A stretch of 31,779 bases of DNA from a virus, in IMG/VR virus record IMGVR_UViG_3300035670_000882, positions 1 to 31,779 of that record; one strand, 5' to 3'. The position numbers and the translations under genes are program-made. Below, in pieces: positions 9,266 to 26,408 of the stretch. Each line of letters begins with the position of its first letter. The first letter of the stretch is position 1. The notes beneath the pieces were generated by a model, which saw nothing but the letters and a program-made list of their open reading frames with translations, made no database searches and was not told the DNA's origin.

Positions 9266-9568
9266 TCAGACACTGCGCCGGTGGCGTTCAGTGTCGATCA
9301 TGGCGAGACAGCCGAGGTATCCGGCTGCGTCAACCAACGAATCTTGGTGGAGTGTCTCCAGGTTCAGGTTGTGTCCCAGTCGGGACAACTTGACTGACAC
9401 CATGAACAGTACGCCCTGCTCGGCGGTCAACTCCACACCGGTGATGGCACGGAAGATGTCCACGGTGCGGGTGTAGTCGTCCAGCGGGTGACCGTAGGTG
9501 TCGTTGCGGTCGTTGGTGATCAGCCGGTGCGCTTCGAGAAGCATTTCAGCTCCGGTGACCGGCTTCAC
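9266..9568 (-). CDS. DUF6378-like phage protein
   Basis: 100 residues. The pattern of AHRLITNDRNDTYGHPLDDY, then ELTAEQGVLFMVSVKLSRL and DSLVDAAGYLGCLAMID is that of a widespread phage domain (DUF6378), distantly MazG-like in helical layout. The biochemical role is unproven; nucleotide-pool housekeeping is a guess by analogy. GTG 9568 overlaps the preceding stop as GTGA. Confidence 0.7.
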   Translation of the reverse strand: MKPVTGAEMLLEAHRLITNDRNDTYGHPLDDYTRTVDIFRAITGVELTAEQGVLFMVSVKLSRLGHNLNLETLHQDSLVDAAGYLGCLAMIDTERHRRSV

Positions 9569-9756
9569 TTGGACCTCGGGTTGAAGGGTATGACCGTGGC
9601 CCCAGAAGAAGGGGAGGCCACCGGGGCCACGGCCCGCTCAACACCCGACACCCCCGTCGCTGGGTTCACCTGGGTGGAGCAGAAATGTGTCGGGTGCAGA
9701 TACAACCCGACGTTCAGAAATACTACTTGACAGTTGACACACCGAACAAACGGCAT
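9565..9756 (-). CDS. Small zinc-ribbon-like protein
   Basis: 63 residues from ATG 9756, with AAAGGGGAT a few bases upstream; a GTG at 9771 is a weaker alternative. MPFVRCVNCQVVFLNV carries a CxxC, and HPTHFC supplies further ligands, as in a small zinc ribbon. The C-terminal half is low-complexity Ala/Pro/Ser. Function unknown. Confidence 0.55.
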   Translation of the reverse strand: MPFVRCVNCQVVFLNVGLYLHPTHFCSTQVNPATGVSGVERAVAPVASPSSGATVIPFNPRSK

Positions 9757-9789
9757 CCCATCCCCTTTCACTTGTGATTGATGTGGACC

Positions 9790-10074
9790 CTACCCGTTGT
9801 CGGTGGCAGGCTCAAATCGTTGCGCGATCACCTGAACGCGGCGCACCATCGCCGCCGGAATATGAAACGGGTGAATGCCGTCGCCGTCGCTGATCGTCTG
9901 CCACACGGTGACATGACCGGCTTTGCCGCCGGGTTGGTCGGCGGGGACCAAGAACCCGGTGGTGTAGATCATCATTTCGCCGTCGTCGTCGTAGTCCTCG
10001 AGCGTGTGCCACCCGGTGTTGCCGCAATGCGCGTCCGCCCACTGCACACACACCAAAGGGTACTCGTAGTTCAT
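9790..10074 (-). CDS. Hypothetical protein, beta-rich
   Basis: 94 residues beginning MNYEYPLVCVQWADAHCG. The spacing of WADAHCG, TLEDYDDDGEMMIYTTGFLV and HVTVWQTISDGDGIHPFHIP resembles small conserved actinophage hypotheticals, but no function is known. ATG 10074 overlaps the upstream stop as ATGA. Confidence 0.6.
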   Translation of the reverse strand: MNYEYPLVCVQWADAHCGNTGWHTLEDYDDDGEMMIYTTGFLVPADQPGGKAGHVTVWQTISDGDGIHPFHIPAAMVRRVQVIAQRFEPATDNG

Positions 10075-10325
10075 TGTTCGTCTCCGTCGATGACGTATTT
10101 CGTGTCAACCCATGAGTCAACCAGGTCGGCTTGGACTGCGTTGACCATGCCGATCAGCACCCACGGGGCGGAGTCTCCGTCGTGGAGGACGTGGAGGGCG
10201 TGTTTGCCGTCTGGGGTCAACCCGGAAATGATAACGATTCCGGCGGTCGGCACGATGTTCGGCCACAGCTCCAACCCGGCCTTCGGCATCAGGTCGTTCG
10301 GGGAGATCGGCTGATATTCCCTCAC
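10071..10325 (-). CDS. Hypothetical protein
   Basis: 84 residues from GTG 10325, which overlaps the phosphoesterase stop as GTGA. It begins MREYQPISPNDLMPKAGLEL and has alternating beta strands (VIISGLTPDGKHALHVLHDG). Frames extending to 10529 lie antiphase to the phosphoesterase and are not coding. No family is recognised. Confidence 0.6.
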   Translation of the reverse strand: MREYQPISPNDLMPKAGLELWPNIVPTAGIVIISGLTPDGKHALHVLHDGDSAPWVLIGMVNAVQADLVDSWVDTKYVIDGDEQ

Positions 10326-11482
10326 TGGTCCGCCCGGTAGTGTTTGCCGTGCCACATCGCCCACCCGTTGTGGATGGCGATCTGTTCGTAGACGAAGTCG
10401 CCGGTGTCCGGGTTGTGGGGGATGACCGCCAAACCTTGCTGCCAATCCTCGTGGCGTACGAGGGGTCGTCCGTCGAGGTCGATGCCGCCTTTGGTGGAGG
10501 GGACGGCTCCGTCGATGCGGGCGAGGCATCCGGGGGTGGCGGCGAGGATGGTGCGCGGCCCGTCGTGATCTTCGCGGGTGCGTTCAGCCCATTCGCGGCG
10601 ATGAATATGACCGTAAATCACTGAGGTCTTTTCGGTGTTGAGGTATTTGTGGGCGGTGGAGCCACCGGAGGCAACTTTGTCGCCGTGGATGACACGCAAC
10701 CGTTCGGTGATCCAGACGGAGCCGGCGGGGTAACCGGGAACGTAGGTGATCCGGTGATCGTCGAATCGGCACAGGTAGGGGACGGAGAGAACGGGCCAGG
10801 AGTCGGGGGTGTTGCCTCGGCGGAGACCGAAGGCGGCTTTGGCGTTGTCAAGGATGTAGTTCGGCAAGCGTTCTTCGTGGTTGCCGGCGAGCCAGTGGAT
10901 GTCGGCGTTGGGGGCGGCTTGGCGGAGCTGCGCCGCGAGGAGGGTGGCCCGGTCGATCGTCGCCTGCGTCGTCAGGGCGTAGGCGGGGGACAGACGGTAT
11001 TTGCCGAACTCGGGGAGGTCCAGGTTGTCGCCGACGAGGACCACCTTCGTCGGGTTGGCGGCCTTGACGATCTTGAGGGCCACGGCGATCGCTGCTTCGT
11101 CGTGAGTGGCCTCCAGATCGCCTGTAACGCCCCGAAAGTACCCAATCTGCATATCCGGCAGGACGACAGCGTTCGGCCACTCAGAACGGCTTACAACGGC
11201 ACTGGGAGGGGTTGTGCGGTGGATCGGCCCCGGCTGGACCACAGGCCACTCCGGACCGGATTCCCACGATGGGGAGAACTGGATCGCGGTCAGGTCGTGG
11301 ACTTCAGCCTCACCCTCATCGTTCTTTGTGAGGGACTGGTACAGCGATACCCGTTGGACCCTGCCGATTTCGTCCAGGTCGATGCCGTTCCGCTCGAGCA
11401 TCTCGGCGATCCGCCCCAACGCCTCCCTGCGCCCCTGGGTGGTTTGGGCGGAGGTGGCGGCGATGTCGTCAGCGAGGCTCAC
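10322..11482 (-). CDS. Calcineurin-like metallophosphoesterase
   Basis: 386 residues from GTG 11482. The metallophosphatase motifs are in order: VLPDMQIG (D110, Q112), VLVGDNLD (G151-D155), LAGNHEER (N201, H202, E203), VIHGDK (H266) and YGHIHRREW (H292, H294). Motif I is DxQ rather than the classical DxH, a variant common in phage members. The first 90 residues are helical (RREALGRIAEMLERNG) and may bind DNA or protein. Likely a di-metal nuclease or phosphatase of the replication region. It overlaps the preceding gene by 14 bases and the next as GTGA. Confidence 0.85.
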   Translation of the reverse strand: MSLADDIAATSAQTTQGRREALGRIAEMLERNGIDLDEIGRVQRVSLYQSLTKNDEGEAEVHDLTAIQFSPSWESGPEWPVVQPGPIHRTTPPSAVVSRSEWPNAVVLPDMQIGYFRGVTGDLEATHDEAAIAVALKIVKAANPTKVVLVGDNLDLPEFGKYRLSPAYALTTQATIDRATLLAAQLRQAAPNADIHWLAGNHEERLPNYILDNAKAAFGLRRGNTPDSWPVLSVPYLCRFDDHRITYVPGYPAGSVWITERLRVIHGDKVASGGSTAHKYLNTEKTSVIYGHIHRREWAERTREDHDGPRTILAATPGCLARIDGAVPSTKGGIDLDGRPLVRHEDWQQGLAVIPHNPDTGDFVYEQIAIHNGWAMWHGKHYRADQ

Positions 11483-20770: not shown

Positions 20771-21178
20771 TCACGCATGAACGATGGCGGTGAAATCCAC
20801 CGTCACATACGCGACTTCGTTGACCGTCAACGCCTGCACGTTTCCGCCACGGTCAATGATCGCCTGTTGGACCGCTCCGCCCAACGACTTGTCCGCCTCA
20901 ACGGCGGCGCGGACCGACTGGGTGCCAGAATACGCCAGGAAGGCGTCAAGTTTCTGCTGTGCGACCCGTTCAGAGGCGCGGGCCACGATGACGGTGATCG
21001 TGAACTGGTACAGCGGGTCGCCACCGGCGAACGCCTGATGGTACGTCACCGAGTCAATCGAGATGACCGCAGTCGGCGGGTTGATCTGGTCCGGGAGGTA
21101 GTCGACGACACGCAGACCGGGGATCTGTGCCAGTTGGGCTTTCAGGCCGGCGGCGGCCTCGGAGACGGTGGCGGCCAT
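20771..21178 (-). CDS. Tail terminator-like protein
   Basis: 135 residues from ATG 21178 (TAATG overlap). The alpha/beta pattern SEAAAGLKAQLAQIPGLRVV, then PPTAVISIDSVTYHQAFAGG, LYQFTITVIVARASERVAQQ and a terminal VAYVTVDFTAIVHA fits the small protein that caps the tail before head joining. Gene order between connector and tail tube supports this. The frame extending to 21517 is antiphase to the connector and rejected. Confidence 0.65.
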   Translation of the reverse strand: MAATVSEAAAGLKAQLAQIPGLRVVDYLPDQINPPTAVISIDSVTYHQAFAGGDPLYQFTITVIVARASERVAQQKLDAFLAYSGTQSVRAAVEADKSLGGAVQQAIIDRGGNVQALTVNEVAYVTVDFTAIVHA

Positions 21179-21780
21179 TAGGCGACCATCACGGAGTTCA
21201 GGCGGTAATCCTCCAACAGCCCGACAGCGGTGGGGTGGAGGGAAGTGCGAAGCCGGATGATGCCGGTTTCGGCGAACGGGGTCGCACCGAACGGGGCGTC
21301 CACCGACTTGAACACATGAATCGTCTGGAGGATCGTGGCCTGCTTGACCGGGTCGGGGATGGTGGACCAACCCCAGCGGGCGGTGATCCGCACCAACGCC
21401 TGCCCGTAGTCGCGGGGGAAATACAGCGACCGGATCGCACGGATCGTCGTGAACGGGCGATAGGAACCGTTGATCAGCCCGTTGAGCGGCTCGAGCTGGT
21501 AGTCGGCGGCAACCCATGTCTGGGAGAACGTGCCGGTGGCACCCGGATCGGTTTCCACGATCAGCCCGGTCGTCACCGAGATGTCATCGGTCTGGACGAG
21601 GTACGGGTTGTCGGCAACATACACACGGGCGGACACCGTCGAATCCTGAACGAACACCCGGTTGCAGTATTCCTGCACCTGACTCGTCGCCGCGGACAGG
21701 GCCACGTCAATCCGGAGGTCGTCGACGGCGTCCTGGATTCCGAGGGCGTTCTTCACGTCCTGACGGGTGCAAATTGCCAC
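21178..21780 (-). CDS. Head-tail connector (gp6-like adaptor)
   Basis: 200 residues from GTG 21780, with AGGAGA 8 bases upstream. The N-terminal helices (CTRQDVKNALGIQDAVDDLR, then VDVALSAATSQVQEYCNRVF) are characteristic of HK97 gp6-like adaptor proteins that bind below the portal. A beta insertion in the middle is larger than in short relatives. In most phages this gene follows the capsid gene closely; here the glycosyltransferase cassette separates them. Confidence 0.75.
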   Translation of the reverse strand: MAICTRQDVKNALGIQDAVDDLRIDVALSAATSQVQEYCNRVFVQDSTVSARVYVADNPYLVQTDDISVTTGLIVETDPGATGTFSQTWVAADYQLEPLNGLINGSYRPFTTIRAIRSLYFPRDYGQALVRITARWGWSTIPDPVKQATILQTIHVFKSVDAPFGATPFAETGIIRLRTSLHPTAVGLLEDYRLNSVMVA

Positions 21781-21789
21781 AGTCGTCTC

Positions 21790-22635
21790 CTAGCCCCGCT
21801 GAGGGGTTCGCCACCAAAAGAAGTGCGCCACCAGCGCAACAACCACCCATTCTGCCCCAATATGGGTTGACGCTGCCACCGCCATTGCGGGGCCGGCAGC
21901 GTGAGCGACAAGGCGCACATGATCCGTCGCCCCGAGCAGTTGCAGGTGCGCCACGACGAGGACGACGATCAACTGCCACGGTGCGTCATACAAACCGACC
22001 AGGGTGACGCCGAACGGGGCGACGAACCACCAGGCGTCGCGGGCGTGCGGAAGATGCCGAGGCCATGCGGTGCGGATCGGGTGGTCAGCGATTTCTTGGA
22101 ACATGGGGCCGAACGGCGACGGACCCGGTCGGGCAACCACGGCCCGCACCGCCGGGGCCGCCAGGGCGATCAAAGGTACCGGCGACATGACCCACAGGGC
22201 GGGCCAGATCGGGGCGGATTCTTTGATCATGCCCGCCACGGTGAACAGGGCGACAGCCAAAGGCCACCAGCCGTGTTCGAGCGCGGCAACCCCCAACAGG
22301 TTCAGGGCGGTAGTGGGCAGGTCGACCCCGACGGGGATCACCACATTGGGGCCGAGGATGCCGGGGAGGCCGATGATCAGGCCGGCGACGAGGACCGCCT
22401 GATACAGCTCGTCACCCGCTGCCAGACGCCACCAGCCCGCTCCTAAGGCGATGAGAGGCCACGAAACCGCCCAGATGGCCCACCACCGCCACATGACGTT
22501 TCGGCACGCCCACGGAAGCAACCAGCGCAGATAGAACGGGCGTGGCGTCGGCTTCCCCTCAACCATGAGCCACATGTGGGCGGCGTCAGGGCCGAGGGGT
22601 ATCTGGCGGCCAGTCGAGGTCAGAAACATGAACAT
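21790..22635 (-). CDS. Polytopic membrane protein of the glycosylation cassette
   Basis: 281 residues from ATG 22635 (TGATG overlap, GGGAGGA just upstream). After a polar start containing KPTPRPFYLRWLLPWACRN come about seven or eight hydrophobic spans (AIWAVSWPLIALGAGWWRLA, AVLVAGLIIGLPGILGPNVV, VVVALVAHFFWW and others). The PFYLRWLLPW segment recalls GT-C-type membrane glycosyltransferases or lipid-sugar proteins, but no catalytic motif can be confirmed. Neighbouring two soluble glycosyltransferases, it may supply or move a lipid-linked sugar. A membrane protein in the middle of head genes is unusual. Confidence 0.65.
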   Translation of the reverse strand: MFMFLTSTGRQIPLGPDAAHMWLMVEGKPTPRPFYLRWLLPWACRNVMWRWWAIWAVSWPLIALGAGWWRLAAGDELYQAVLVAGLIIGLPGILGPNVVIPVGVDLPTTALNLLGVAALEHGWWPLAVALFTVAGMIKESAPIWPALWVMSPVPLIALAAPAVRAVVARPGPSPFGPMFQEIADHPIRTAWPRHLPHARDAWWFVAPFGVTLVGLYDAPWQLIVVLVVAHLQLLGATDHVRLVAHAAGPAMAVAASTHIGAEWVVVALVAHFFWWRTPQRG

Positions 22636-23270
22636 CAGTCCTCCCGATGGTGGTGGTGGTAGGTGAACGCCGGGTTCTCCCAAAATCCACCGGGCAAATC
22701 GGCCACCTTCAGGTCATACAACCGGACGATGTACGGGAAGGACAGTTGGTCTTGGTAGGTCAGCGTGTCGTTGTGTGCAAACCACTGTGCCGCCGCCAAC
22801 CGCGGTCGCACACCCGCCGCCCACCCAAGAATCCCCGTCTGCCACAAACCACCATGCGGGGGCATCTTCCGTCGGCGGAGGAAGTCCATCTGTGCGCCGA
22901 TGGGCTGACCTGCGTACTTCAGCAACGGCACCGAGGCGGCGACCTCCTCGTAGACACAGTCGCGGTGAATGTGGCGGAGGAGCGCAACGTCGTGGGTTTC
23001 CAACAGCTCCTCGATCTGGATCAAATACTCCAGGTCGCGCCACTGAATCGACCCATCCAACCACAGGGCTTTACCATCGGTCGGTGGGTGGCAACGGTGC
23101 CACTTCGCGGACAGCCGCGGATGATCAAACCGGCCCGCTTCCCAGCGCACCTCCCACCCGTTCGGCTCGAGGTTCGGGTTGTCGGTGAACGCCACCCACT
23201 CCACACCCTGCATCGTCGGGTGCGGACGCAGGGTGTCATAGTCCCCATAAATCGCCGTGTAGACGATCAT
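22635..23270 (-). CDS. DUF616-type glycosyltransferase-like protein
   Basis: 211 residues. MIVYTAIYGDYDTLRPHP, EWVAFTDNPNLEPNGWEVRW, PRLSAKWHRCHP, then KALWLDGSIQW match the DUF616 (TOD1/MUCI70-like) group. These are nucleotide-sugar glycosyltransferases in which the LDG-type aspartate takes the place of DxD. Family relatives occur in plants and bacteria. It ends with FTYHHHHRED. Start and stop both form TGATG overlaps, tying the three cassette genes together. Acceptor unknown. Confidence 0.75.
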   Translation of the reverse strand: MIVYTAIYGDYDTLRPHPTMQGVEWVAFTDNPNLEPNGWEVRWEAGRFDHPRLSAKWHRCHPPTDGKALWLDGSIQWRDLEYLIQIEELLETHDVALLRHIHRDCVYEEVAASVPLLKYAGQPIGAQMDFLRRRKMPPHGGLWQTGILGWAAGVRPRLAAAQWFAHNDTLTYQDQLSFPYIVRLYDLKVADLPGGFWENPAFTYHHHHRED

Positions 23271-24634
23271 CAGCCGAACTGCTTCAACCGCTTCTGGAAC
23301 AACCGCCGATCCTGCTCCGCAAACCTGGACCCCACCTCGTACACCTCGTCCTTTGCGGCCTTGCCGACCATCGGGTGAAAATGCTCCACCTCCGACGCCA
23401 ACGCCGCCTGAAACTGGCGACGCTGTTTCGCCGCGGTGATGATCTCGTCGTCAACGAACCAGTGCCGGTACCCCTCATGGCAGATCACACCAGGACCATC
23501 CCACGACGCACCCACCTGATCGATGTAGTCGCGACGGATCAACGGGTGTGTGGCATGTTCCCCGCGCATCACCCTCGGGTTCGCCAAATCGTTCGTCCCG
23601 ACCACCGACACCTGATAGCGGCGAGCAATGTCCTGCGCCTGATCCAACCAGCCGGCACGGAACCGCACGTCGTCACCGACCAACAACACCCACGGGTTGC
23701 TCGAGCGGTGATAGGCAAAGTTGACCTTCTCGGCGAACGTGCCGTCACGGAAACACACCTCGCCACCCAACGCCATCACCAACTCATGCTTCGCGTGATC
23801 GTCCTCGTTCAACACCCACAGCGGGCGCGCCAACCCGGTCGACGCCACCAACGACTCCATCAACGGGGCCACATTGTCCATCCGACCCGGCAACGACGGC
23901 ACGATCACATCGACCCGCTCCCGCGCCGGCGGAGCCACAAACGACGCCCAAAAATCCGACTCACCCAACCACAACTGCTTCAGATGGGTGGTGCGAATCC
24001 CAGTGTGAACGTGCAACGGAATGTCCAACGCCTGCGTCCGAACAAAGAACGAAATGTCCTCACCCATCACCGAATCATCCGTTCCGGTGACACGGGTGAA
24101 CCATGTCGGGCCGTAGTTCTCCAGCACCAGCTCGGCAACGCGGCGGTGGATCAGCAGCATCGCGGCACCCGTCGCAGCGCACTGCACCAACGAATTCACC
24201 GGATAATGGGCGCGACCCGTGAACCGCCAATGACCATCATCGTGCTGGATGTAGTCAAAGATCGTCGGGCGGGGCACACACCGGAACCCGTGCGAACCAT
24301 CGTCGAACGCTTCCCGCTGTGCGAAACACAACCCGCCAACGATCGGACGTTGCATTGGATCGGCAACCGACAACAACTGGTCCAGCACCACCGGTTCGAA
24401 TCCCATGTCGGCATCAACCATCAGCACCCACTCGGCGTCCGACTCCAACAACGACTGCATCAACTTGTTCCGACCCTCAGGCAAACCTCCCGTGGCGCAC
24501 TTCACCGACGACCACGAATGCAACCGGTGACCATGCGACAGGTCGTAGCCGACCAACGCCATCAGCGACTTGTGGAAAGATGCGGCGATTTCGTTCGGGT
24601 GCAAATACCCGAACATCACATCCTGCTTAGCCAC
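23270..24634 (-). CDS. Two-domain GT-A glycosyltransferase
   Basis: 454 residues from GTG 24634; longer frames upstream are Arg/Cys-rich nonsense. Domain 1 (about 1-235) is a GT2-like fold with GGLPEGRNKLMQSLLES, WVLMVDADMG (DxD at D74/D76) and GEDISFFVRT late in the domain. Domain 2 (from about 241) starts again with VDVIVPSLPGRMDN, then PWVLLVGDDVRF (D321/D322) and a GYRHWFVDDEI motif, so it looks like a second GT-A domain. The protein could add two sugars or polymerise. It lies directly after the small capsid-associated gene. Confidence 0.8.
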   Translation of the reverse strand: MAKQDVMFGYLHPNEIAASFHKSLMALVGYDLSHGHRLHSWSSVKCATGGLPEGRNKLMQSLLESDAEWVLMVDADMGFEPVVLDQLLSVADPMQRPIVGGLCFAQREAFDDGSHGFRCVPRPTIFDYIQHDDGHWRFTGRAHYPVNSLVQCAATGAAMLLIHRRVAELVLENYGPTWFTRVTGTDDSVMGEDISFFVRTQALDIPLHVHTGIRTTHLKQLWLGESDFWASFVAPPARERVDVIVPSLPGRMDNVAPLMESLVASTGLARPLWVLNEDDHAKHELVMALGGEVCFRDGTFAEKVNFAYHRSSNPWVLLVGDDVRFRAGWLDQAQDIARRYQVSVVGTNDLANPRVMRGEHATHPLIRRDYIDQVGASWDGPGVICHEGYRHWFVDDEIITAAKQRRQFQAALASEVEHFHPMVGKAAKDEVYEVGSRFAEQDRRLFQKRLKQFG

Positions 24635-24869
24635 GCTTTGTAGCCCGCTTCTCACCCGGAGCCGCCGACGCCGACTCCACAGGGCGGGAACGCTCCCCAC
24701 GGATCTTCGGCGGCATCTCCGCAAACAAATCAGGGCGTGACACGACGAACGGGTCGTCGGCATACCAGGCTTCCCCGGCGAGCATCGACACCAGCAACCC
24801 GGTGTGCGGGTTCGAGGTGGACAGCGACGCCTGAGCAAAAACGATTCTTGGTGCGGTCATGGCGGTCAT
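24627..24869 (-). CDS. Small head-associated protein
   Basis: 80 residues (ATG 24869, or ATG 24860). The core APRIVFAQASLSTSN...SMLAGEAWYADDPFVVSRPD...LFAEMPP resembles short proteins that follow the major capsid gene in many actinophages, where 'ST' and 'DDP' segments are conserved; their role is unclear, possibly head completion. The tail is low-complexity. Its stop overlaps the glycosyltransferase GTG by 8 bases. Confidence 0.6.
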   Translation of the reverse strand: MTAMTAPRIVFAQASLSTSNPHTGLLVSMLAGEAWYADDPFVVSRPDLFAEMPPKIRGERSRPVESASAAPGEKRATKRG

Positions 24870-25028: not shown

Positions 25029-26408
25029 TCAGGTGTTCTGGAGGAGGCGGAACGCCGCGTCGTTCACGGAGTCGAATCCGTGACGTGCGTAGGCGAACCA
25101 GCCGCGGGCACCCAGCGGGCGACCGTTGGTGACACCGAACAGGTGGGGGACCAGCTCGACCGTCATGCCGGCGCGCTGCGCCACCACGTAGTTCGAGAAG
25201 TCGCCGACCACCAGGATGTTCGCTGCACCGGTCGTCCCGGTGAACTCCGGGGCGTAGTCCGACGTGATGATCGGACGACCCAGAAGGGTTCCGACACCAC
25301 CAGCGGCGAGGTTCACCGTGTAGTACGCACCGTCGGAGTCGGCCGCGAACTTGCGGATCTCGTTCTCCACCGAGGTCGACATGACCCAGGTTGCACGGCT
25401 GCGGTACCGCTCCGGCAGAGCCTTCCACACCTTGAGGATGTCGACTGCGCCGAGCGCACCGTCGGTCGTCACAGCAACCTCCGAGCCGGCGGTGGCGTCG
25501 ATCGCGGTGAAGATACCAACCGGGGTGGTCCCGGTCATGGTCTGCTTGGCAACGAGGTCGACGTAGCCCTGGTCGAGAAGACGGCGCATCTCCTCGGCGA
25601 AGCCGGGGTAGTCCTGACCGATCTCGATCGAGTACGGAATGAACCCACGCGCCGAGTAGACGTCGATCGACGGCTGAGCCAGCGTCGGGGAGTCATCGGA
25701 CACCTCTTCGAGCTCCGCGTCGTACGACCAGGCGGTGCCAGCCGAGCTGACGCCGTTCCACTTGTCGGTCGTGATCGTGACCACCCGTGCCACCGACAGC
25801 AGCGGGGCATCCGCCGCACCCGAAGTAAGGATAATTGAGGGATCGATGAGAACGGGAACCCCGTACCCTCCCGCGGAGTCGGCACCCGACATCGCACGGA
25901 ACTCGTTGATCGCCTGCGCCTCCTCAGCGGTGTACGCCGGGTTCGTCTGGGTGACACCCTTCATGAACGCCGAACGGTACGCCTCGTTCTCGGTGAGAAC
26001 CAGACGCTTGGCGATCTCGCCACCGTCGGTCACCTCGTTACGGGTCGCCAGCAGGGTCTCCAGGTGACGCTCCTGATGGGCGCCGAGACGGGCCTTCTCA
26101 GCGATGCGGAGGGCGGCGTCACGCATTTCCTTGCGGGATGCGCGGCGAACGTCCACCGACTCGTCATTGGACTTGATGATCTGGGGTGCGTCGAAACCGG
26201 CGGCACGCTCGGTCACAACCGACTTCGCGGCTGCGATGCGTGCGGCGCGGGCCTCAGCGGCATCCAGTTCGGCCTTGCGGGCCTCGAACTCCTCGAGCGC
26301 GGCGTCCAAACGGGCGTCGTCCTCCGGGGAGATGTCGTCGGCAGCTGCGAGCTTCTCGATTTCGCTCTGAAGCGCAGCAACCTTGGAACGAAGCTCTTCC
26401 ATGAGCAT
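25029..26408 (-). CDS. Major capsid protein (HK97 fold)
   Basis: 459 residues. Residues 1-60 are a coiled coil (ELRSKVAALQSEIEKLAAAD, ALEEFEARKAELDAAEARAA), the delta/scaffold segment normally removed by the prohead protease. From about residue 150 the HK97 shell domains follow: GGYGVPVLIDPSIIL, ARGFIPYSIEIGQDYPGF, the KALPERYRSRATWVMSTS helix-strand and VGDFSNYVVAQRAGMTVELV. ATG 26408 forms a TAATG overlap with the protease; ATG 26402, two codons later, has better spacing to AAGGAAG. Two strong hairpins follow. Confidence 0.93.
   Translation of the reverse strand: MLMEELRSKVAALQSEIEKLAAADDISPEDDARLDAALEEFEARKAELDAAEARAARIAAAKSVVTERAAGFDAPQIIKSNDESVDVRRASRKEMRDAALRIAEKARLGAHQERHLETLLATRNEVTDGGEIAKRLVLTENEAYRSAFMKGVTQTNPAYTAEEAQAINEFRAMSGADSAGGYGVPVLIDPSIILTSGAADAPLLSVARVVTITTDKWNGVSSAGTAWSYDAELEEVSDDSPTLAQPSIDVYSARGFIPYSIEIGQDYPGFAEEMRRLLDQGYVDLVAKQTMTGTTPVGIFTAIDATAGSEVAVTTDGALGAVDILKVWKALPERYRSRATWVMSTSVENEIRKFAADSDGAYYTVNLAAGGVGTLLGRPIITSDYAPEFTGTTGAANILVVGDFSNYVVAQRAGMTVELVPHLFGVTNGRPLGARGWFAYARHGFDSVNDAAFRLLQNT

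Follow-up and report, generated by a model that had tools for sequence, protein, structure and literature searches.

A glycosyltransferase (GT) gene occupies a fixed site behind the major capsid gene in nearly all members of a lineage of mostly uncultured phages, and it is followed there by a changing set of genes concerned mainly with sugar chemistry. The genes in this slot probably form a late-expressed module for glycosylation of the virion, with a putative acceptor and a putative sugar. This reading is supported by the gene order and its conservation, by GT-A folds with intact catalytic residues, and by purifying selection.

Gene organization around the slot

The window, which is the whole stretch of DNA analysed, is an IMG/VR virus record of 31,779 bases with a G+C content of 61%. 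On the minus strand, the genes follow each other in the order large terminase, portal, protease, capsid, small head gene, three slot genes, gp6-like connector and tail terminator. Next on this strand, 3′ of the tail terminator, are the genes of a small protein, interpreted as the major tail protein, and of a tape-measure-like protein. This head and tail layout is the standard HK97-type order. A metallo-phosphoesterase (phrog_20266, 7e-77) is encoded at the end of the tail region (10322-11482).

The upstream neighbour of the slot is the gene of the HK97-type major capsid protein (25029..26408, minus strand; 459 residues), which matched PF05065 (5.4e-34) and the major head protein family phrog_10 (2.4e-48). 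Between capsid and GT lies the small head gene (24627..24869, minus strand; 80 residues; head-tail connector phrog_9538, 2.7e-5), a conserved neighbour in the relatives, including those that have no GT. The GT gene (23270..24634, minus strand; 454 residues) begins with a GTG codon and overlaps the end of the small head gene by 8 bases. It is followed by the gene of a TOD1_MUCI70 (former DUF616) glycosyltransferase-like protein (22635..23270, minus strand; 211 residues) and by that of a polytopic membrane protein of about 281 residues from its ATG (21790..22635, minus strand). The gp6-like head-tail connector (21178..21780, minus strand; PF05135, 6e-5; phrog_442, 3.7e-16) forms the downstream boundary of the slot. 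The initial annotation had described the three genes as joined by TGATG overlaps inside the head operon, and these overlaps were read directly on the minus strand at both junctions, at 23272-23268 (GT/TOD1) and 22637-22633 (TOD1/membrane protein).

Compared with the closest relative contig, dN/dS was 0.18 for the GT, 0.05 for the TOD1 protein and 0.05 for the membrane protein. The GT gave values of 0.14-0.17 against two more distant relatives, with 0.16-0.23 for the capsid gene and 0.18 for the portal gene, the ratios of distant pairs being rough as synonymous-site distances are near or above 1. With dN/dS values comparable to those of the capsid and portal genes, the three slot genes are considered real and maintained, and not chance open reading frames.

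The two-domain glycosyltransferase

The AF2 model of the 454-residue protein (pLDDT 93.5, pTM 0.90) consists of two complete GT-A domains, and searches with Foldseek and VIA returned glycosyltransferase folds. The protein also matched two glycosyltransferase families, phrog_34859 (3.3e-20) and phrog_14945 (8.5e-5). Domain 1 (about residues 1-232; 23939..24634, minus strand) has STIV A197 (2c0n) as its best VIA match, with a Z-score of 19.6 and an rmsd of 2.2 over 172 aligned residues. Domain 2 (about residues 233-454; 23270..23938, minus strand) is GT2-like. It matched PcManGT, GalNAc-T2, WrtF, RmlT and TarP/TarS with Z-scores of 17-18.6, so that structure prediction, which had been put forward as a check on this domain, gave GT2-type glycosyltransferase folds.

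Among 46 aligned sequences, the invariant residues are those of the D74xD76 motif (D74 and D76), the E192-D193 pair and H217 in domain 1, and D321-D322, D395-D396-E397 and H418 in domain 2. By analogy with GT2 enzymes, these would provide the metal/nucleotide Asp motif, the acidic base and the His. The two domains resemble each other weakly and locally (E 9e-4). They are encoded by separate genes in some relatives, and domain 1 stands alone in many. The two-domain GT-A architecture proposed initially is upheld by the high-confidence model, the fold matches and the relatives with split domains, and the protein is confirmed as a predicted GT-A glycosyltransferase in both domains. GT-A enzymes of this kind draw on cytoplasmic nucleotide sugars. 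When the window GT was compared by tblastn with 50,697 phage records (E 1e-5), two matches were obtained, with no mycobacteriophage among them.

The TOD1 protein and the membrane protein

The TOD1 protein matched PF04765 (3.2e-9) with 37 bits over profile positions 154-287 of 314. This score is above the curated cut-off of 21.4, in keeping with the DUF616 identity given at the outset. A further match was to the glycosyltransferase family phrog_26101 (4.6e-6). Used as a single query, the protein found a near-identical contig as its only match, and its relatives were drawn from the GT and capsid searches.

The membrane protein had been called polytopic, and from its hydrophobicity it is predicted to contain several membrane segments. 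Its relatives, with 38-53% identity, occur in the head operons of about 25 contigs, all of them from phages, which makes it a phage-restricted family. It gave no match to Pfam, PHROG or PDB profiles, nor to 296 genomes of the Amycolatopsis phylum in a search run without a positive control. An AlphaFold model calculated from 12 sequences was too poor for use (pLDDT 41.5). The conserved motifs of the family may resemble those of GT-C-like proteins. In one relative (L106, 1366-2199), the family member is encoded between large terminase and portal, not beside a GT, still within the head operon. The sole match in the cultured collection, Caudovirales GX15bay (E 2e-3, 31.8%), was dropped, as it lies at the end of the record without capsid context.

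Linkage of the glycosyltransferase to the capsid gene

A search with the GT yielded 76 viral contigs, down to about 40% identity, and in nearly all of them it is preceded by the capsid/small gene or followed by the connector. A search with a capsid alignment was run against the bias of querying with the GT, the alignment itself being built from GT-bearing loci. It found contigs that had been missed by the GT search, as well as contigs devoid of GT. Fifty-six of the 80 best capsid loci were testable, meaning that the contig extends to the connector gene or continues for at least 2.5 kb past the capsid gene. GT domain 1 was present downstream of the capsid gene in 54 of these 56 nearest capsid relatives. 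Wherever the contig extends to the connector, domain 1 sits between it and the capsid/small gene. The gene-neighbourhood search that the initial annotation had recommended has therefore shown the GT to be linked to head genes in both sets. The layout had been thought non-standard; this view has to be abandoned, as the GT-bearing layout is the rule in its own lineage and GT genes in a head operon are known from phage Corndog (PMC4351075).

Two relatives (L156 and L157) have no GT. Their capsid-connector gap of 368 bp contains the small gene only and represents the clean empty state of the slot. A single 348-bp open reading frame separates the capsid and connector genes of the cultured Gordonia phage Nymphadora, a distant capsid relative. 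Both observations agree with the earlier remark that this interval is normally short.

In the prophage of Amycolatopsis pretoriensis DSM 44654, the order is portal, protease, capsid, small gene, GT, 2OG-oxygenase-like and methyltransferase genes, and connector. This strain was the only one among 396 sampled genomes of the Amycolatopsis phylum to contain a full-length GT relative, and the GT is therefore regarded as essentially a phage gene. From the Amycolatopsis relative, it may be guessed that the host of the window phage is an actinobacterium. Relatives of GT domain 2 were also seen in Gemmatimonadetes, Planctomycetota and other MAG contigs (L094, L095 and L096). Two of these, L095 and L096, contain matches to terminase or portal and, directly after the GT, a gene related to the epimerase, which suggests that the same module is present in phages of other phyla.

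Variable content of the slot

The second position, after domain 1, is filled by a fused domain 2 as in the window, by a separate domain 2 gene, or by the membrane protein. At the later positions, genes for a nucleotide-sugar epimerase, a deoxysugar-type C-methyltransferase, O-methyltransferases, GT2 enzymes and TOD1 proteins are exchanged among relatives, as are those for LicD, a 2OG oxygenase and an FAD oxidoreductase. The interval from GT to connector spans 0.1-5.7 kb, and at least one sugar-related family could be recognised among its cargo in 25 of the 29 cases examined. The TOD1 and membrane proteins are each found in a minority of relatives, the GT being the only conserved part, and the exact trio of the window is complete in just one close contig (L002/L078). 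The trio is one combination among others, and the constant part is the GT. The earlier proposal of a sugar-transfer cassette placed beside the capsid gene and timed with virion assembly stands as regards the GT, which is locked to the capsid gene and for which virion glycosylation is the best reading. It does not stand as regards the trio, which is no fixed unit since the TOD1 and membrane proteins are exchangeable.

Further genes were observed in these operons. A GT-B-type glycosyltransferase (PF13524, Glyco_trans_1_2) recurs in the GT set, 14 loci of which encode it just past the tail-terminator region (for instance L030, 11179-12204; L027, 11764-13011; L080, 8812-9846), and constitutes a second sugar-gene spot beside the tail genes. 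Large probable virion-appendage proteins are encoded between the GT and the later genes (L017, 3660-4352 and 5307-6041; L051, 8142-8864; L006, 8129-9130). One of them resembles a beta-propeller repeat, and a C-terminal ending like 'VINFAAVDRAANW' is common to several, possibly as a shared attachment tail. Behind the capsid region, L070 (7356-8006), L093 (about 9382-9981) and L181 (7397-7903) encode an oxygenase or oxidoreductase. That of L070 is a 2OG-Fe(II) oxygenase with a relative in the Amycolatopsis prophage, and in prophiGD02-2 the gene after the capsid region is annotated 'oxidoreductase'. The oxygenase step is perhaps a hydroxylation ahead of glycosylation.

Proposed function of the slot genes

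Virion glycosylation is preferred because of the precedents offered by Corndog, Che8 and STIV A197. From their position in the head operon, the slot genes would be expressed late, together with capsid and connector. Acting in the cytoplasm with a nucleotide sugar as donor, domain 1 would set a first sugar on a virion protein, at an exposed residue; the capsid is the first candidate acceptor and the tail tube the second. Domain 2 would attach a second sugar. The genes that follow (TOD1 here; epimerase, C-/O-methyltransferase and more GTs in relatives) may extend or alter the glycan. As these later genes are swapped freely while domain 1 is kept, the outer part of the glycan is probably what selection diversifies. 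Since some relatives hold the membrane protein where others hold domain 2, this protein would most likely add or deliver one sugar instead of a soluble second GT, which is the least certain step of the scheme. Several observations count against virion glycosylation. The capsid proteins of the lineage show no Ser/Thr-rich C-terminal tail, their sequence stopping at the capsid fold, and the idea of linking such a tail to the presence of the GT was dropped on this account, with a mere two relatives for comparison that have no GT. A membrane protein is ill-suited to a purely cytoplasmic modification. Two relatives manage without the GT, which is consequently not indispensable.

The membrane protein is better accommodated if the modification is directed at the host envelope. 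In that case the target of the soluble GTs and the membrane protein would be a polymer of the cell wall or one linked to lipid, modified in lysogens or towards the end of infection. Masking of the receptor in this way would keep newly released virions from being wasted on debris and would exclude superinfecting phages. The presence of a polytopic membrane protein directly 3′ of a GT fits this scheme, as does the resemblance of domain 2 to GTs of teichoic acid and other polymers (TarP, TarS, RmlT), and genes for LicD and epimerases typically belong to loci for surface polymers. However, receptor-converting genes usually reside near the attachment site and are expressed in the lysogen, whereas those considered here are locked between capsid and connector. 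Most relatives also have no membrane protein, and the closest structure to domain 1 is that of a viral GT tied to capsid glycosylation. On balance, an action on the envelope appears rather unlikely. Serotype conversion of the Gtr type was rejected in view of the location of the slot between small head gene and connector, and of a membrane protein without GtrA (no Pfam match).

The site after the small head gene could also be a general cargo (moron) site, where insertions are tolerated as neutral for transcription and where sugar genes with mixed, unrelated targets accumulate. The highly variable content (0.1-5.7 kb) and the occurrence of large probable virion-appendage proteins would be explained in this way. 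Retention of domain 1 in 54 of 56 relatives, with dN/dS values like those of structural genes, and the strong bias of the cargo toward sugar chemistry make this explanation improbable. Still harder to credit is a hypermodification of DNA or nucleotides, in which the GTs would glycosylate modified bases of the phage genome. Glycosylation of DNA by viral GTs is documented (Pyle 2024, as cited in PMC12619734), and such a role was proposed for GTs of freshwater actinophages (PMC10202952). Against it, the genes travel with structural and not with replication genes, the cargo includes NDP-sugar and sugar-methyl enzymes, and the scan of window proteins, which covered part of the open reading frames, revealed no gene for base modification.

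Virion glycosylation is the reading retained. A tentative extension, which we regard as possible but would not wager on, is that the slot is a capsid-linked locus of glycan diversity across the lineage, where a near-universal initiating GT, an interchangeable second position and swapped tailoring genes would give each phage a different sugar coat, and where the membrane protein would be a new phage-only transferase acting on virion or envelope glycans. A constant enzyme followed by exchangeable sugar genes recalls antigen-variation loci and raises the question of what selects for such exchange on phage particles. Glycosylation of the virion has so far been demonstrated in a few mycobacteriophages only. 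Sugar genes are a near-constant component of the head operon in this large lineage, most of which is uncultured, and virions with a sugar coat may thus be common in nature. The prophage in Amycolatopsis pretoriensis DSM 44654, a named and deposited strain, offers a direct way to test the idea. Neither glycosylation of phage virions nor the presence of GT genes in head operons is new. As far as the papers and databases searched extend, the new elements are the fixed post-capsid slot, near-universal in an uncultured lineage, the modularity of its second position, the partnership with TOD1, and a membrane protein family, so far undescribed, that occurs only in phages.

Comparison with known systems

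The pairing of a GT with a membrane protein is shared with phage gtrABC operons. Those lie near the integrase or attachment site, whereas the window cassette is in the head operon and has no match to GtrA. GT genes of aquatic actinophages are represented by the freshwater phages E7/F5 and G2/G3 (PMC10202952).

Two GT-A domains per chain, as in the window GT, are found in K4 chondroitin polymerase (K4CP) and heparosan synthase 2. The fold of domain 2 is common to these two enzymes and to RmlT, TarP/TarS and GalNAc-T2, with 10-15% identity. The whole chains of two-domain GT2 enzymes do not superimpose on the window GT (rmsd of 16-21), and the arrangement of the domains therefore differs. Domain 1 shares its GT-A fold with STIV A197, the closest solved structure, at 13% identity. 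A197 is a single-domain protein from an archaeal virus with an unrelated capsid, unlike the two-domain window GT. The STIV capsid protein carries glycans, and A197, an essential GT of the virus, has been suggested as the enzyme that attaches them (PMC10551542).

Glycans have been demonstrated on the capsid and tail tube of mycobacteriophages, where glycosylation of the capsid is described as requiring gp110 in Che8 and gp38 in Corndog (PMC12363180 and PMC12619734, citing Freeman 2023). Virion glycans are demonstrated for this Corndog/Che8 type, whereas for the window lineage they are a prediction. The likeness to Corndog is one of layout and not of demonstrated ancestry, given that the search at E 1e-5 revealed no relative of the window GT in cultured mycobacteriophages. 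In Corndog, O-methyltransferase and GT genes are placed between portal and protease (PMC4351075), whereas the window genes are placed between capsid/small gene and connector and comprise a two-domain GT, a TOD1 protein and a membrane protein. Like Corndog (cluster O, gp35-gp38), the window phage has soluble GTs inside the head operon and the same siphophage type of head genes. In both systems, sugar-tailoring enzymes that include a methyltransferase, in Corndog itself and in the slot of the relatives, stand next to the GTs within the structural operon.
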